Source: Anaerobacillus sp.
GTDB lineage: Bacteria > Bacillota > Bacilli > Bacillales > Anaerobacillaceae
NCBI GenBank assembly: GCA_007118195.1
Contig: SKSA01000174.1
Span: forward strand, 1 to 10,726
DNA: 10,726 bases
Reading direction: 5' to 3'
Shown here: in pieces, positions 3,506 through 10,585 of the stretch
Layout: each line of letters opens with the position of its first letter
How positions within the stretch are numbered: position 1 is the first letter of the stretch
Notes under the pieces: model-generated
Seen by the model: the letters and a program-made list of their open reading frames with translations, nothing else
The model's database searches: none
Told to the model about the DNA's origin: nothing
Position numbers and translations under genes: made by a program

Positions 3506-3588
3506 AAAATGACGGTCGGTTTTTTCGAACAAGCCTCTAAAGTCGGTACGAATTTACAGCGCAGAGAGGAAAAGTCGACCGTCATTTT
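3506..3588 (+). repeat. Structured intergenic element, copy 3 (terminator-like)
   Basis: A perfect 13-bp stem, AAAATGACGGTCG (3506-3518) with CGACCGTCATTTT (3576-3588), encloses the same core TCGAACAAGCCTCTAAAG as copy 1. Together with copy 2 it forms a diverged tandem duplication. Each element is followed by a related spacer starting AGATGGTG and ending GTTTTGTATG, at 3457-3497 and 3597-3633. Confidence 0.72.
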
Positions 3589-3633: not shown

Positions 3634-3668
3634 AAAAAAAAGGAGGATGACTCGTAAAAGTCATCCTC
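3634..3668 (-). terminator. Intrinsic terminator of the reverse-strand small RNA
   Basis: A perfect 10-bp stem (3643-3652 with 3659-3668, six-base loop) is followed on the reverse strand by C and then eight T. On the forward strand no T-run follows, so the terminator acts only on reverse-strand transcripts. No protein gene lies just upstream on that strand. Confidence 0.85.
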
Positions 3669-3745
3669 AATGGGGAGTTAATCTTAGTTATCATAAATGA
3701 ACTTTTGAGGGGAGGGGGAACTCCCGAAGATCATTGCTAACTTAC
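3634..3745 (-). ncRNA. Probable trans-acting small RNA with C-rich motifs
   Basis: A perfect consensus promoter and a strong intrinsic terminator, 110 bp apart on the same strand, define a transcript of about 110 nt with a predicted 5' G at 3745. It contains CCCCCTCCCCTC and, nearer the terminator, AACTCCCC. Both are suited to pairing with GGGGAG-type Shine-Dalgarno sequences. C-rich unpaired stretches followed by a terminator are the known design of Firmicutes regulators such as RsaE/RoxS and FsrA; I cannot assign it to one of these by sequence. The only internal ORF is 16 codons (start 3734) without a good ribosome site. The promoter overlaps a 26-bp palindrome, which suggests repressor control. 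Its target set is unknown. The gene 74 bp away in the divergent direction has a GAGGGGAAG site that partly complements the C-rich segment. Confidence 0.7.
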
Positions 3746-3761
3746 AAATTTATTATATAAT
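3734..3761 (+). promoter_or_regulatory. Possible forward promoter of the methyltransferase gene
   Basis: TTGCTA (3734-3739), a 16-bp spacer and TATAAT (3756-3761) face the gene at 3819. Its start near 3768 would place the 3765-3790 palindrome at the very 5' end of the mRNA. It overlaps the opposing small RNA promoter, so the two could compete for polymerase. The match is moderate. Confidence 0.4.
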
Positions 3762-3780
3762 CATATAAACACTATGTCAA
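3752..3780 (-). promoter_or_regulatory. Perfect consensus promoter of the small RNA
   Basis: On the reverse strand TTGACA (3780-3775), a 17-bp spacer and TATAAT (3757-3752) match the sigma-A consensus at all twelve positions. The predicted transcription start is at 3745. Confidence 0.85.
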
Positions 3781-3800
3781 TAGTGTTTATAATTTTTTTT
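3765..3800 (+). terminator. Palindrome acting as forward terminator and possible operator
   Basis: ATAAACACTAT and ATAGTGTTTAT form a perfect 11-bp inverted repeat around GTCA (3765-3790), followed on the forward strand by AATTTTTTTT. It would stop forward transcripts coming from the yqgX side. Its centre is the -35 box of the reverse-strand small RNA promoter, so it could also be a repressor operator. I cannot match the half-site AACACTAT to a named regulator. Confidence 0.65.
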
Positions 3801-5387: not shown

Positions 5388-6095
5388 TTAAGGCAAAATT
5401 AGTGTATTATATGAACAAAAACTGTAATCGACTTCATCAGCCATATAGCTATCCTTTTTTAAATTAATATCAGTAAAGAAGAAATCAAAAAATCCATTGA
5501 TTAATGCTTGGTGCATTTTACAAATTGGTACACGGTCAGGAACAAGCTCCTTGAACGTACAATTGTATATTCTAAAGTTCACTTCATTTGATTCTTTGTC
5601 GAAATGAATTTCAGGGTTTAAGCCTTGTTGCAGAGCGACAGTTTTAATATGATTTAATTTTTCTTCATTTTTAAGGGTTTCTAATTTTAAATTGAGTGCT
5701 TGTAAATAAGATTTAGCTGTTTCAAAACCGAATTTACGACCAGTTTCAATTAAAGCTTTCTCACCAATATCACCTAAAGATAAAAGCGTATCTATAGCAA
5801 TTTCCGATAATTTTTGATAATCTCTATATGGAAACTGTAAGCTTACTACTTCATCAGACAAGCGATAAAAACGGCTCGGGCGTCCCCCTTTACCTGTTTT
5901 CTTCGTTTCTGATATTAACATATTTACATCTTCTAATTTTGTTAAATGAAGGCGCGCAACATTGGCATGTATTTCAAAGGCATCGGCTATTTCTTGTACA
6001 GTGATATCGCGATGCTGTTTTGCCACATATTGATAGATCGAAAAGCGTGTCGGATCAGAAAGCACCCCTGTTATTTTTAGAGTTTGTTGCTCCAT
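5388..6095 (-). CDS. Winged-helix transcriptional regulator, SufR/ArsR-like with cysteine motif
   Basis: The 235-residue protein opens with an ArsR-type winged helix-turn-helix: VLSDPTRFSIYQYV (11-24), ITVQEIADAFEIHANVARLHL (31-51), and the wing GKGGRPSRFYRLS (68-80). A helical middle part follows. The C-terminal domain contains NCTF, PICKMH and SFCSY, giving C179, C192, H195 and C227. The C-x12-C spacing of the first two equals that of the iron-sulfur repressor SufR, whose ligands sit in the same part of the protein, so a cluster or metal sensor is a fair guess. The start has an AAAGGGAGTG site. Upstream is a TATAAT box near 6130. Homologues occur beside comGA in other Bacillaceae as I recall. 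The target genes are unknown. Confidence 0.78.
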   Translation of the reverse strand: MEQQTLKITGVLSDPTRFSIYQYVAKQHRDITVQEIADAFEIHANVARLHLTKLEDVNMLISETKKTGKGGRPSRFYRLSDEVVSLQFPYRDYQKLSEIAIDTLLSLGDIGEKALIETGRKFGFETAKSYLQALNLKLETLKNEEKLNHIKTVALQQGLNPEIHFDKESNEVNFRIYNCTFKELVPDRVPICKMHQALINGFFDFFFTDINLKKDSYMADEVDYSFCSYNTLILP

Positions 6096-6398: not shown

Positions 6399-6473
6399 TG
6401 GCTGGGATGGCAGGATTCGAACCTACGCATGACGGAGTCAAAGTCCGTTGCCTTACCGCTTGGCGACATCCCA
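6399..6473 (-). tRNA. tRNA-Gln (anticodon TTG), downstream copy
   Basis: The reverse strand gives a 75-nt tRNA: TGGGATG acceptor arm pairing with CATCCCA, discriminator G and encoded CCA (6401-6399). The D-arm has GCCAAGCGGTAAGGC and the T-loop GGTTCGAATCC. The anticodon loop CTTTGAC carries TTG at 6441-6439. The sequence is identical to the copy 116 bp upstream. Confidence 0.97.
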
Positions 6474-6514: not shown

Positions 6515-6589
6515 TGGCTGGGATGGCAGGATTCGAACCTACGCATGACGGAGTCAAAGTCCGTTGCCTTACCGCTTGGCGACATCCCA
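6515..6589 (-). tRNA. tRNA-Gln (anticodon TTG), upstream copy
   Basis: This copy is identical in all 75 positions to the one at 6399-6473, including the encoded CCA (6517-6515). The first 12 to 15 flanking bases on its 5' side are also similar, so the pair comes from a tandem duplication with a 116-bp period. It is the promoter-proximal copy. Confidence 0.97.
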
Positions 6590-6736: not shown

Positions 6737-7780
6737 TTGTTTGATATTGAAGCAAAAAGTAACGAAATAATCATTCAAGCCTACAAAGTTCGTGCATCGG
6801 ATGTTCATATTATTCCTACAAATCCCTATTCTGTTATTGAATACCGTGTTGATCACCAGTTAGTAACAATAGAAAAAATACGAAATAGTGAAGCTGAAAA
6901 GATCATTTCTCACTTGAAGTTTCGCTCTAAAATGGATATTGGCGAAAGAAGAAAACCTCAAAGTGGCTCGCTTACAATGACAATAATGGAAGATAAAATA
7001 AATATTCGCCTCTCTACTTTACCAACAATTCCGCATGAAAGTTTATCTATCCGAATTTTACCTCAAAACGAAGTCGAAACTCTTCAACGTCTCACACTTT
7101 TTCCAAAACATACAGCAATGTTAAGTTCGTTAATTAAAAAGGCGCACGGCTTAATCATCGTTTCAGGGCCTACTGGTTCAGGAAAAACGACAACGATCTA
7201 TTCACTTTTAAATGAAGCAGCAGCAAGAAAAAAAAGAATTATTTGTATTGAAGACCCTGTCGAGATGCAAACAGATACCTTTATTCAAGTAGAGATTAAT
7301 GAAAAGGCCGGACTCACTTATGCAGAGACTTTAAAGTCTGTGTTAAGACACGATCCAGACATTATCATGATTGGTGAAATACGTGATTTTGAAACAGCGA
7401 AAATCGCTGTTCGTGCAGCAATGACTGGTCATTTAGTCATTAGTACGATACATGCTAAAAGTTGTCTTGGTTCTATTAATCGTCTAAAAGAGTTAGGTAT
7501 TGAAGAGCACGATATAAATGAAACAGTGATTGGGCTTGTCTCGCAAAGATTAGTTGAAATGAAATGTCCCTTATGTGGCGATAACTGTTCGAAGTTTTGT
7601 CGAATTTATCGGAAAAGAAGGCGCCTAGCTATTTTTGAAATTTTAGCTGACAAATCTTTAGAAGCTTTAATTAATGAAGGTGAAATAAACCATCGATATG
7701 AAAGTTTGGAACAAACGATAAAGAAAAGTATCACATTAGGATATGTAAACGAAAAAGAATATGAAAGGTGGCTATGTTGA
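6737..7780 (+). CDS. comGA: ComGA, competence pseudopilus assembly ATPase
   Basis: The 347-residue protein is a GspE/PilB-type secretion ATPase of the short Gram-positive form. It shows RASDVHI (19-25) of the N-terminal domain, Walker A GPTGSGKT (144-151), the Asp box IEDPVE (171-176), Walker B around DIIMIGEIRD (208-217), and the His box HLVISTIHA (232-240). A tetracysteine cluster (C277, C280, C284, C288) is consistent with the zinc site of this family. It powers assembly of the ComGC pseudopilus used for DNA uptake at the cell membrane. TTG at 6737 follows AAGGAAGGTGG at 6721-6731. Its stop overlaps the comGB start (TGATG), showing translational coupling. All catalytic residues are present, so the gene itself is intact. 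Confidence 0.94.
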   Translation: MFDIEAKSNEIIIQAYKVRASDVHIIPTNPYSVIEYRVDHQLVTIEKIRNSEAEKIISHLKFRSKMDIGERRKPQSGSLTMTIMEDKINIRLSTLPTIPHESLSIRILPQNEVETLQRLTLFPKHTAMLSSLIKKAHGLIIVSGPTGSGKTTTIYSLLNEAAARKKRIICIEDPVEMQTDTFIQVEINEKAGLTYAETLKSVLRHDPDIIMIGEIRDFETAKIAVRAAMTGHLVISTIHAKSCLGSINRLKELGIEEHDINETVIGLVSQRLVEMKCPLCGDNCSKFCRIYRKRRRLAIFEILADKSLEALINEGEINHRYESLEQTIKKSITLGYVNEKEYERWLC

Positions 7781-8814
7781 TGAAAAATAAACATAGCTTG
7801 AATTACGAAGAAAAAGCCGAATTTTTAGTAAGAACTGGAAAACTTCTTGAACAAGGATATACGATATCGGATTGTATTGATTTTTTCTTAAAATACGAAA
7901 AGAAAAAACTAAAACCGGCGCTATATGTCATGCTTCAACAACTTCAAAATGGAAGTTCATTTAGTGATACATTGGTAGTTTTACAAATGCCCAAAAATAT
8001 TATTAGTTTTGTTTATTACGCTGAGCACTACGGGGATTTAGCTCACGGGCTTATAAAAGGTGGAGATTTATTACGGAAAATAGAAGAAAATAAAAGGAAG
8101 CTTGAAAAGCTTTTAAAATACCCGATTTTTTTACTGTGGATCATAACGGTCTTTTCGATCATTTTATATCAATATTTATTTCCACAATTTTTGCTCCTTT
8201 TTTCTAGTATTAATATTCAACTACCCTTCATTTCGCGAATATTCCTTTATATTATTGACCAATTACCATACTATTTCGCAACAACATTCATTTTAGCTTT
8301 TTTGTTGCTTACCTATTTTATTTTTGTGATTCGAAAAAAAGGTGGGATCTATAAAGCTAGATTAATTTGTCGATTTCCAATCATTGGTCACTTTTATCGA
8401 GTTATGATTACGTACTATTTTTCAATAAATTTAAGTTGTTTAATAAAAAGTGGGATGTCGATCTTAGAAGCACTTTCGATTTTTCATAAACAGGAAAGTG
8501 AAAAATACGTTGGTGAGGAGGCACAACAAATAATTATGAAATTAGAGAAGGGTGAGCCACTGCACCTCGCCTTAATCGATAACACCGTTTACTTAAAGGA
8601 GTTAGCTTACATCGTTGATCATGGTCAAGCAAATGGCCGTTTAGATGAAGAACTTGATCATTATAGTCAATGGCTATTGGAAGAATTTGATCATAAATTG
8701 AAAAAAATATTTATGATCATTCAACCGACATTATTTTTATTCATAGGAATTACAGTTTTACTTATGTTTGCATCAGTCCTTCTACCTATTTTTTCTTTAA
8801 TCGAAGGGCTTTAA
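7780..8814 (+). CDS. comGB: ComGB, competence pseudopilus membrane platform protein
   Basis: The product, 344 residues from ATG 7780, is a T2SF (GspF/PilC) family inner-membrane protein. Two cytoplasmic helical domains are separated by membrane segments. The first pair begins with YPIFLLWIITVFSIILYQYL and LPYYFATTFILAFLLL, and the last helix near the C terminus ends LLMFASVLLPIFSLIEGL. The repeat features SGMSILEAL and GQANGRLDEELDHYSQ are typical. It anchors ComGA and helps assemble the pseudopilus. ATG 7780 was preferred over GTG 7768 because the AAAGGTGG site (7764-7771) is correctly spaced from 7780 and overlaps the GTG. The gene is complete, and a ribosome site for the next gene follows five bases after its stop. 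Confidence 0.92.
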   Translation: MKNKHSLNYEEKAEFLVRTGKLLEQGYTISDCIDFFLKYEKKKLKPALYVMLQQLQNGSSFSDTLVVLQMPKNIISFVYYAEHYGDLAHGLIKGGDLLRKIEENKRKLEKLLKYPIFLLWIITVFSIILYQYLFPQFLLLFSSINIQLPFISRIFLYIIDQLPYYFATTFILAFLLLTYFIFVIRKKGGIYKARLICRFPIIGHFYRVMITYYFSINLSCLIKSGMSILEALSIFHKQESEKYVGEEAQQIIMKLEKGEPLHLALIDNTVYLKELAYIVDHGQANGRLDEELDHYSQWLLEEFDHKLKKIFMIIQPTLFLFIGITVLLMFASVLLPIFSLIEGL

Positions 8815-8831
8815 AGAAGGGGAGTTCTATA

Positions 8832-8846
8832 GTGAAAAAGACCTAA
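8832..8846 (+). pseudogene. comGC: Remnant of comGC: start codon and four codons, then stop
   Basis: AAGAAGGGGAG after the comGB stop is correctly spaced from GTG at 8832, which reads Met-Lys-Lys-Thr and then stop. ComGC is always expected here in Bacillaceae and commonly starts with a few basic residues before the GFTLIEM pseudopilin motif. No frame in the following 110 bases shows that motif. The most economical reading is that comGC is cut directly after its fourth codon, near 8843, by an insertion, deletion or rearrangement. The assignment rests on position and ribosome site, since four codons carry no identity. Confidence 0.55.
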
Positions 8847-8956
8847 TTTCAATAGAGTTTTATAAACGTTCACAATTAATAATGTGTAATTTGAAATAAA
8901 AAGTTATCATAGTAATTAGTATAGTAATTTTTCAAATTATTAGGCGGTGTTATAAG

Positions 8957-10585
8957 GTGCATAATCTATATTTTAATCGAAAAATAAAGGCGGTTGGATA
9001 TTTAATAATTTTTATTACGGTAAGTTGGTTCATTGTTTATTTCAGTAATGGAACGTCTTCAGTATTCCCGCTATTATTTTTTATACCTATTACATTTGCT
9101 GCTTGGAAATTAGGAGCTTTCGGTGGTTTAACTGTAGGATTATTGTCGGGGATTGTTATTGGTCCCTTTATGGCTTTAGATGTGTCACAGCAAATTGCAC
9201 AACCGTTATATAACTGGGTAATGAGGTTATTGTTTTTTTCAGTATATGGTTATGCAATAGGAAGATTAATTACTGAACTAAAAAGTAATAGTATATATGA
9301 CAGTTTAATGGGAATCCCAAATCGGACTTTCTTTTACAGGTATTTAACAACCAAATTGCAGCAAAAAAAAATTAAAAAAGCATTTTTTGTTGTTTTAATT
9401 AATATTGATGATTTTAAAAGTATAAATGATAGTATTGGGCATACTGCTGCTGACTCATTATTAATTGAAATAAAGTCTCGTATCTTAAATTGCATAAGTA
9501 AAAAGGATATGCTGGCAAGGTGGTCTGGAGATGAGTTTGCAATTGTCGTATTTGGCGATAGTGAGGAACAGTTAACCCCTGTTTGTGATTGTATTTATAA
9601 AACGTTACGCTCACCATTTGAAGTAAAAGGGCAACAATTTTTTATTAATGCTAGTATGGGGGCAAGTGCGATTTCTAGCAAGCATCAAAAATATGAAATT
9701 TTGCTTAAAGAAGCTGAAACGGCAATGCGTTTTGTAAAAAAACGTGGGAAAAATTGCTATAAGTTTTATACAGAGGAAATGGATAGAAACTCACTAGAAG
9801 AGAAACTTCTTGAAACGAAGTTGCATCAAGCATTGGAAGAAGAGCAGTTTGAACTTTATTATCAAGCGAAAATTGATTGTAAAGAAAAGAAAATTTATGG
9901 TGTTGAGGCATTAGTTCGTTGGAATAGTCCCGAAGAGGGAATAATCTCACCAGGTGTCTTTATTCCGATGGCGGAAAAAACGGGTTTAATTATTCCAATA
10001 GGTAATTGGGTGTTAAAAACAGCTTGTAATCAAGTGAAAAAATGGCAAGAACAAAACCTAAGAGATATATGTATTTCTGTGAATGTTTCAGCATTACAAA
10101 TTCAGGAAGAAGATTTCGTCTCTACAGTTGCTAACATTTTAGAAGAAACAAATATAAATCCAGAATTAATTGAGTTAGAAATTACTGAAAGCAGTATTAT
10201 GGAAGATACAATTGAGAATATAATGAAGTTAAATGAATTAAAGGAACTTGGATTAAAAATATCGCTTGATGATTTTGGAAAAGGATACTCTTCATTAAAT
10301 TACTTGAAAATCTTACCGATTGACACATTGAAAGTTGATAAATCTTTTATTCAAAACATTGAGTATGACCCAAAAGAAAAAGTTATTACCGAATCAATTA
10401 TTCGTATGGCTAAAGCACTTGGGTTAAAAGTACTTGCTGAAGGGATCGAAAATGAGTCACAACACTCTCTTTTGGTCCAACTTGATTGCGATGCAATGCA
10501 AGGATTTTTATTTTCAAAACCGTTACCTATTGAACAAGCAGAAAATTTAATTAAAAAAAATCGCTCAGTTATTTATGAACGTTAA
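8957..10585 (+). CDS. Membrane GGDEF-EAL protein (c-di-GMP synthesis/hydrolysis)
   Basis: The 542-residue protein has three to four N-terminal membrane helices (about 12-30, 36-52, 54-73, 88-106), then a GGDEF domain (about 112-272) and an EAL domain (about 282-535). The cyclase site has D151/D152 in INIDDFKSIND and SGDEF at 190-194, a variant often still active. The inhibitory I-site position reads SKKD instead of RxxD, so product inhibition is probably lost. The phosphodiesterase site looks complete: E317-A-L, N376, E408, D438-D439, K459, E498 and Q515. It may be bifunctional or mainly a phosphodiesterase. The GTG start follows GGCGGTG. It lies where comGC-GG should be and stops 22 bp before the right repeat. 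Similar proteins govern the motile-to-sessile switch in Bacillus. Confidence 0.92.
   Translation: MHNLYFNRKIKAVGYLIIFITVSWFIVYFSNGTSSVFPLLFFIPITFAAWKLGAFGGLTVGLLSGIVIGPFMALDVSQQIAQPLYNWVMRLLFFSVYGYAIGRLITELKSNSIYDSLMGIPNRTFFYRYLTTKLQQKKIKKAFFVVLINIDDFKSINDSIGHTAADSLLIEIKSRILNCISKKDMLARWSGDEFAIVVFGDSEEQLTPVCDCIYKTLRSPFEVKGQQFFINASMGASAISSKHQKYEILLKEAETAMRFVKKRGKNCYKFYTEEMDRNSLEEKLLETKLHQALEEEQFELYYQAKIDCKEKKIYGVEALVRWNSPEEGIISPGVFIPMAEKTGLIIPIGNWVLKTACNQVKKWQEQNLRDICISVNVSALQIQEEDFVSTVANILEETNINPELIELEITESSIMEDTIENIMKLNELKELGLKISLDDFGKGYSSLNYLKILPIDTLKVDKSFIQNIEYDPKEKVITESIIRMAKALGLKVLAEGIENESQHSLLVQLDCDAMQGFLFSKPLPIEQAENLIKKNRSVIYER

Follow-up and report, generated by a model that had tools for sequence, protein, structure and literature searches.

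A predicted C-rich small RNA of Bacillales under a palindromic candidate operator linked to a SufR-like regulator gene, with formate dehydrogenase mRNA as its most likely target

The locus analysed here raises three connected questions: whether a promoter and a terminator on the minus strand of an Anaerobacillus contig delimit a genuine small RNA gene, which regulator might control such a gene and on which mRNAs its product might act. The window, i.e. the whole stretch of DNA analysed, comprises 10,726 nt. Our reading, to which we assign a probability of about 0.68, is that the gene encodes a trans-acting C-rich small RNA forming the RNA arm of a redox/Fe-S regulon, in which a SufR-like repressor would act at a palindrome over the -35 element and the RNA would pair with the leaders of respiratory genes, above all of fdhA. 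Gene anatomy, conservation, the operator, the link between operator and regulator gene and the complementarity of the leaders were seen in the sequence itself.

The small RNA gene (predicted transcript of about 112 nt) occupies positions 3634–3745 of the minus strand, as indicated by its promoter and terminator, by conservation within the genus and by model matches across the order. The sigma-A-type promoter (3752–3780, minus strand) agrees with the consensus at 12 of 12 positions, with the -35 hexamer TTGACA at 3780–3775, a 17-nt spacer and the -10 hexamer TATAAT at 3757–3752, and is the sole 12-of-12 sigma-A-like site in the whole window. Of 2000 simulated windows (first-order Markov, equal length), 29 contained a perfect TTGACA-N16-18-TATAAT; by itself, the promoter is unusual, yet not decisive. 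The intrinsic terminator is a stem-loop at 3643–3668 (minus strand) with 11 pairs as counted by the tool, followed by a C and eight T ending at 3634. The sequence-only reading had proposed an undescribed small RNA between such a perfect promoter and a 10-bp stem with eight T: the promoter and the T run were borne out, while the stem proved to be one pair longer. Its statement that no coding gene lies between the two also held, none of the listed open reading frames of at least 60 aa falling into this interval. Both of the C-rich segments it had pointed to are present, the first (UUCCCCCUCCCCUC, 3720–3707, minus strand) partly within the loop of a GGGAG/CUCCC hairpin and the second (UUAACUCCCCAUU, 3681–3669, minus strand) directly before the terminator and mostly single-stranded in the predicted fold. 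The segment 3684–3705 (minus strand) has an exact complement in the fdhA leader of genome G004. The predicted RNA folds at -29.8 kcal/mol (z = -4.95; none of 200 shuffles equally stable), much of this stability coming from the terminator. The idea of a structured RNA or riboswitch found no support: RNAalifold detected only the invariant GGGAG hairpin in variant A (the variants are described below) and nothing shared in variants B and C.

The gene is flanked divergently by a putative SAM methyltransferase gene (PF02636; 3819–4955, plus strand) and convergently by an MBL-fold hydrolase gene (PF00753; 2461–3093, plus strand), which are neighbours in 82 and 89, respectively, of 89 collected loci, both counts being affected by the retention of only those loci where one of these two genes was found. 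A DUF2626 protein gene (PF11117; 5008–5289, minus strand) lies between the methyltransferase gene and the SufR-like regulator gene, and no suf genes were seen within the window. Several other features of the window were recorded in passing. Near the RNA gene, hairpin elements (3506–3588 and, by eye, 2265–2350) have a core sequence in common (cgaacaagcctctaaagt...) and resemble dispersed copies of one small repeat. A 101-nt direct repeat, 93% identical between its copies, contains two tRNA genes in tandem (6402–6473 and 6518–6589) with the same score. In the region 6737–10585, genes which we take to be comGA- and comGB-like are followed by a GGDEF-EAL-looking gene of 542 aa instead of the remaining comG operon. 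Both contig ends (4–122 and 10608–10726) consist of a 119-nt inverted repeat with 99% complementarity, which makes a break of the contig at a dispersed repeat probable.

Comparison of relatives supports the element in the window as a real small RNA. It was kept in all six other Anaerobacillus genomes compared, adjoining the methyltransferase and MBL genes, with a body near-invariant within the genus, and the promoter, C-rich motifs and terminator, on whose joint conservation in relatives the sequence-only reading had staked its proposal, were found conserved together. The terminator covaries: in an alignment of six Anaerobacillus rows (L007, whose stem differs, was left out), 4 of the 11 pairs were changed on both sides with 98.5% of the cells paired, and a slide of the helix by one column lowered pairing to 42–44%.

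Search models built from the RNA alone, with the promoter excluded, matched 63 of 299 genomes of the order with one match each (18 for variant A and 45 for variant B/C), and no genome was matched by both types of models; this number is a lower bound, as G066, G227, G250 and G293 have the palindrome and a C-rich RNA without a model match. All 20 fetched matches unused in model building adjoin the MBL-hydrolase gene and 18 of them adjoin the methyltransferase gene; these 20 constitute an independent set, the loci collected through the palindrome being partly selected by it. Altogether, 89 distinct loci were gathered by requiring a TTGACA-centred palindrome and one or both neighbour genes; each of them has at least two C-rich clusters, the conservation of the palindrome within this set being partly by construction. 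Reading of the sequence downstream of the palindrome matches revealed C-rich RNAs of differing bodies at the same locus; within a named collection of 50 palindrome loci such an RNA was read in 40 (L151 is cut at the contig end), the remaining ten belonging to Brevibacillus (five), Actinobacteria/Thermoleophilia MAGs (four) and Robertmurraya (one). Three variants can be distinguished: variant A (Anaerobacillus, Evansella, Salipaludibacillus and their kin) with GGGAGU(U)CCCCCUCCC ... UUCAUU ... ACUCCCC, variant B (Salinibacillus, Lentibacillus and their kin) with AUCCCUAACCAA ... GCACAUCCCCC and variant C (Anoxybacillus, Neobacillus, B. methanolicus and their kin) with AUCCCCUCCCAU ... ACAUCCCCC.

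The Rfam search of the window and 18 RNA-bearing loci gave no family at gathering score for this RNA, which supports the claim of an undescribed RNA, and literature searches by sequence string and topic in open papers found no description of the RNA, the palindrome or the regulator. Two further loci were included in the search of the 18, and the one match there was a SECIS element. At a permissive threshold U4, sRNA71, PyrR, MIR1515 and others appeared, all far below gathering. The sequence-only reading had likened the RNA to RsaE/RoxS and FsrA: the style of a C-rich small RNA stands, while identity with RsaE/RoxS (RF01820) was rejected, there being no covariance-model match and a separate RsaE match in twelve carriers. 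The latter was found among 61 genomes searched, where RsaE matches lie at another place in G007, G010, G015, G017, G018, G032, G037, G052, G053, G060, G062 and G063, eight of them over the family cut-off; none was found in the variant A carriers G000, G001, G011, G047, G050 and G056 with strict filters, under which the absence is not firm.

A feature that went unmentioned in the sequence-only reading lies over the promoter: a perfect inverted repeat of 10-6-10 shape (TTAACACTATTGACATAGTGTTAA-like) is centred on the -35 hexamer, giving a candidate operator ATAAACACTA-TTGACA-TAGTGTTTAT at 3765–3790, with the same motif in the same place in other genera. To expect an abundant RNA from the consensus promoter, as the sequence-only reading did, is consequently too simple; because the operator covers the -35 element, expression is probably conditional. 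Repeats of this shape occurred in 20 of 500 Markov windows, and the window itself has two more at terminators, so that the palindrome counts through its conservation and not by itself. Among the 20 independent model matches, 18 keep a TTGACA-centred palindrome with 3–7 mismatches, although the models contain no promoter. The match is poor on one arm in L227 and L228, and only the -35 remains in L226 and L229 (genomes G017 and G062), with 8 mismatches to the pattern. In control stretches from the same loci, some of which include the operator itself, 229 of 4000 reached 8 mismatches and 78 reached 6. With up to three mismatches the palindrome matches 82 of the 299 genomes; single sites of this kind prove little, since a reversed control pattern also matches in scattered places.

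Outside the RNA-bearing loci, the palindrome recurs beside the regulator gene. In all five Brevibacillus loci it stands 86–234 bp before a divergent regulator gene, and in three of the four loci from Actinobacteria/Thermoleophilia MAGs 25–143 bp before one; in the remaining one, L128, the palindrome is overrun by the predicted regulator frame, which probably extends too far. On the opposite side, the five Brevibacillus loci (L121, L127, L140, L148 and L150) have a Spx/MgsR-like gene in place of the small RNA, the family being tested for L121. In the MAG loci the palindrome precedes cytochrome c and COX1-family genes taken to be norCB-like in L116, cytochrome c again in L136 and an anaerobic CO dehydrogenase gene in L123; a norCB-like gene was noted in L128 by reading only. 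In Robertmurraya massiliosenegalensis (L145, 3385–3408) it is flanked by ctaA (PF02628) on one side and a divergent ctaB-like gene on the other, and no small RNA was seen at this locus. Palindrome-like sites were further found before qoxA, ctaA, cytochrome oxidase subunit II, sulfide:quinone-reductase-like, NiFe hydrogenase, formate-dehydrogenase-like and resA-like genes, several of the downstream genes being named by reading. These sites show a respiratory theme, amid many other 3-mismatch sites that stand before unrelated genes or within coding sequence.

Searches of the promoter for consensus operators of known regulators gave nothing better than chance for Fur, Rex or SufR: the best Fur-like box (7-1-7) had 5 mismatches and was equalled or bettered in 160 of 300 other windows, the best Rex-like site had 6 (133 of 300) and the best match to the SufR operator, which is CAAC-N6-GTTG, had 3 (274 of 300). 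For Fnr, NsrR and NrdR sites the best matches had 3–6 mismatches and were matched or bettered in 263, 39 and 23 of 300 windows, respectively.

The likely binder of the palindrome, judging from linkage, is the product of the SufR-like HTH regulator gene (PF12840) at 5388–6095 on the minus strand, 1.6 kb from the small RNA gene. The protein is an HTH_20 member with a fair AlphaFold model (pLDDT 83.7, pTM 0.60). The residues C179-x12-C192-x2-H195 and C227 (C192-x34-C227) were invariant in 41 of 41 aligned homologues; the three cysteines also align in the regulator proteins of Actinobacteria and Brevibacillus, and the HTH residues H-x-NV-x-R-x-HL are common to the regulators across these phyla. 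It differs from SufR in scoring far below the cut-off of the SufR_cyano equivalog (TIGR02702; 29.7 bits vs 178.8) and in its operator, which departs from CAAC-N6-GTTG. Its C179, C192 and C227 come close to the three conserved C-terminal cysteines C203, C216 and C244 given for Rv1460 of the SufR family in the available part of PMC6034842. We infer an Fe-S cluster as the sensor of this protein, and likewise the signal that it would sense.

The distribution of the regulator is linked to that of the RNA. A search with the window protein (E ≤ 1e-20) found it in 117 of the 299 genomes: in 61 of the 63 RNA-bearing ones vs 56 of the 236 others (Fisher p = 4e-28, kinship ignored). Regulator and RNA genes share strand and contig in 61 of 61 cases and stand within 2.5 kb of each other in 60. 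The only RNA-bearing genomes without the regulator at this threshold, G017 and G062, are the same two that lost the palindrome; since they belong to a single genus and are near-identical at the locus (149 of 160 positions), the two losses count as one event. Of the 56 regulator-bearing genomes lacking a model match, 20 were examined: in 11 the gap between the methyltransferase and MBL genes is too short for the RNA (10–141 nt between the protein-match ends), two (G023 and G105) have diverged C-rich remnants, four retain the MBL gene only and three have neither neighbour. Judging from these gap sizes and neighbours, the RNA seems to have been lost as a unit with the regulator retained.

The candidate target emerged from a relaxed genus-wide search for RNA-like sequence, which gave one outstanding match outside the RNA genes: 34 nt in G004 (E = 1.5e-7), antisense to the RNA and about 51–84 nt upstream of a gene for a TAT-signal molybdopterin formate dehydrogenase, the next matches falling on the terminator. 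Orthologues of this fdhA are present in five of seven Anaerobacillus genomes (L245–L249), all with an in-frame TGA at codon 191, and the G004 gene contains a SECIS element (SECIS_3, L016 2141–2199), because of which the enzyme is probably a selenoprotein. No close orthologue was found in the window's own draft genome (62% complete). All five Anaerobacillus fdhA leaders are complementary to the middle and second C-rich segments of the RNA, with duplex energies of -41 to about -76 kcal/mol, and three paralogous leaders without such an element reached about -26 kcal/mol.

Within the order, fdhA orthologues occur in 24 of the 299 genomes, and pairing was tested in the 19 for which an RNA sequence was also available (G023, G067, G100, G178 and G203 were omitted for want of one), with 243 leaders with a ribosome site as controls, after exclusion of 1694 leader instances near an operator (duplicates included). 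Perfect pairing of at least 9 nt with the genome's own RNA was found in 17 of the 19, and in seven genomes none of the 243 controls paired as long: G004 (23 nt), G002, G275 and G128 (12 nt each) and G242, G118 and G089 (11 nt each). Pairing of 11 nt in G003 and G001 was equalled by 4 controls, and that of 10 nt in G154, G037 and G076 by 3, 2 and 6 controls, respectively. It was weak in G194, G219 and G145 (9 nt; 11–12 controls as long), in G006 and G296 (9 nt; 16 controls) and in G285 (8 nt; 45 controls); the sole clear miss was G169, with no pairing to speak of (6 nt; 238 controls). By duplex energy, eight of the 19 genomes beat all controls, while G296, G275, G169 and G076 were beaten by 33, 16, 16 and 10 of 243. 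Genomes of the same clade are non-independent tests in all these counts.

The leader matches track the RNA's own changes: G128 and G154 have ACAUACCCCC as the second C-rich region and GGGGGUAUG in the fdhA leader, and the f47 genomes other than G169 have GAACAUCC(C) and GGAUGUUC. When RNAs and leaders were swapped in a 12-by-12 design, the RNAs of foreign clades paired in shorter perfect stretches with most leaders. As exceptions, the own RNA was equalled by the G275 RNA at the G128 leader (12 nt) and by the G128 RNA at the G006 leader (9 nt), the G169 leader paired no better with its own RNA, and the variant A RNAs tied or nearly tied among themselves. Duplex energy fails to separate own from foreign RNAs, since those of variant A, being longer and having more C, often do equally well or better with leaders from other clades (the G275 RNA on the G242 leader gave -46.0 vs -37.9 for the own RNA). 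From the complementarity, the most likely target of the RNA is the formate dehydrogenase mRNA. The best pairing falls on the ribosome site itself in G275 and G296 (positions -20 to -3) and 24–77 nt upstream of the start codon in most clades (141–152 in G002); as the pairing is mostly upstream, the RNA need not repress and may instead activate.

Other complementary sites were noted at the ribosome site of a NapC/NirT-type cytochrome gene in the window's own genome (L176) and in G006 (L188), at the ribosome sites of MraZ-like genes (L189–L192) and at a SigB-like gene. The NapC/NirT and MraZ-like sites are strongly complementary to the first C-rich region; since G-rich sites attract a C-rich RNA, the cytochrome, MraZ-like and SigB-like sites are leads only.

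For transcription, binding, the signal, the direction of regulation and the effect on targets, the following chain is proposed. The SufR-like regulator would bind the palindrome and repress the small RNA promoter, repression being its likely mode because the palindrome covers the -35 element. Loss or change of its presumed Fe-S cluster (by oxygen, nitric oxide or shortage of iron or sulfur) would lead to synthesis of the RNA, whose C-rich regions and adjacent segments would pair with the leaders of respiratory mRNAs at or upstream of the ribosome site. The main target would be the molybdopterin formate dehydrogenase mRNA, with translation or stability lowered, and the RNA might thus reduce the output of costly, oxygen-sensitive respiratory enzymes.

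Whether the SufR-like protein is the regulator at all can be questioned, since genes of the ResD type, namely qoxA, ctaA and a resA-like gene, are preceded by operator-like sites. The palindrome might then be bound by another redox regulator such as ResD, the SufR-like gene being linked by position only; RoxS, according to the accessible part of PMC5419742, is induced by ResDE. We consider this unlikely, as the palindrome adjoins the SufR-like regulator gene in Brevibacillus and Actinobacteria as well and the sole genus with the RNA but without this regulator has lost the palindrome. A doubt of another kind concerns the meaning of the fdhA complementarity, which, with its very long Anaerobacillus duplexes lying mostly upstream of the ribosome site, might be a sponge or anchoring site for the small RNA and not a repressed target, in the manner of RosA, an RNA sponge for RoxS (PMC8464778, seen as an excerpt). 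Against this speak the pairing on the ribosome site itself in G275 and G296 and the IsrR-fdhA pairing of about 31 bp, for which impaired translation is proposed in the available part of PMC9410917; the sponge reading appears quite unlikely.

Two further explanations are less probable still. The position of the RNA gene directly beside the methyltransferase start in 82 of the 89 loci would fit a regulatory leader or an antisense by-product of the divergent methyltransferase promoter that does not act in trans; yet the RNA has its own covarying terminator, is absent from at least 11 of the 20 examined regulator-bearing genomes despite the presence of both neighbours and is matched clade by clade by leaders elsewhere, which makes such an origin very unlikely. 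A small mRNA is the least probable, to the point of being hardly credible: a 16-codon frame with its AUG at about 3734 does span the conserved body in the window, but no Shine-Dalgarno sequence was seen before it, a one-base deletion in the C-rich stretch of L007 shifts the frame, on which ground the peptide reading was dropped, and the bodies of the other variants are quite different.

What the comparison would offer is an RNA traceable across many Bacillales genera, its operator and candidates for both the regulator and the target, i.e. a chain that can be tested in Bacillus methanolicus, Anoxybacillus and Anaerobacillus, and a suggested function for a widespread, unnamed 'ArsR-like' regulator. 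Trans-acting small RNAs are mostly poorly conserved across species (PMC9410917, in part), and RNA-seq of B. methanolicus had yielded 24 intergenic small RNAs, six of them with a predicted function (PMC4342826, in part).

Among the known systems, RsaE/RoxS is likewise a C-rich small RNA of Bacillales, linked to redox and NO, with a promoter under redox regulators, and RoxS and FsrA use their C-rich regions in redox and iron control (available parts of PMC5419742 and PMC8464778). RsaE/RoxS pairs with its target mRNAs through such regions, which are present here with pairing predicted, while the window promoter differs in having no Rex-like site better than chance. FsrA of Bacillus subtilis is likewise small (84 nt), and its C-rich regions are proposed to pair with the ribosome sites of iron and respiratory mRNAs (PMC8464778, in part); it differs in being Fur-controlled, no Fur-like box better than chance having been found here. 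Staphylococcal IsrR, described in the accessible part of PMC9410917, has C-rich regions, as here, and targets fdhA mRNA, which for the present RNA is a candidate target by complementarity with one clear miss and six weak genomes of 19, the predicted targets of IsrR being Fe-S enzymes; it is controlled by Fur through two Fur boxes, whereas the window promoter has no Fur-like box better than chance. Formate dehydrogenase would thus come under small-RNA control by two different regulators, Fur with IsrR and a SufR-like protein with the present RNA. With odds somewhat better than even, Firmicutes would have in the latter pair a third small-RNA system for redox and iron, next to Fur-FsrA/IsrR and ResD/Rex-RoxS. 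In such a system the genes of the SufR-like Fe-S regulator and of its small RNA lie near one another, the operator would be older than the RNA (serving also, in Actinobacteria, nitric oxide reductase-like genes and CO dehydrogenase genes and, in Brevibacillus, a Spx/MgsR-like gene) and the second C-rich region would co-evolve with the formate dehydrogenase leaders.
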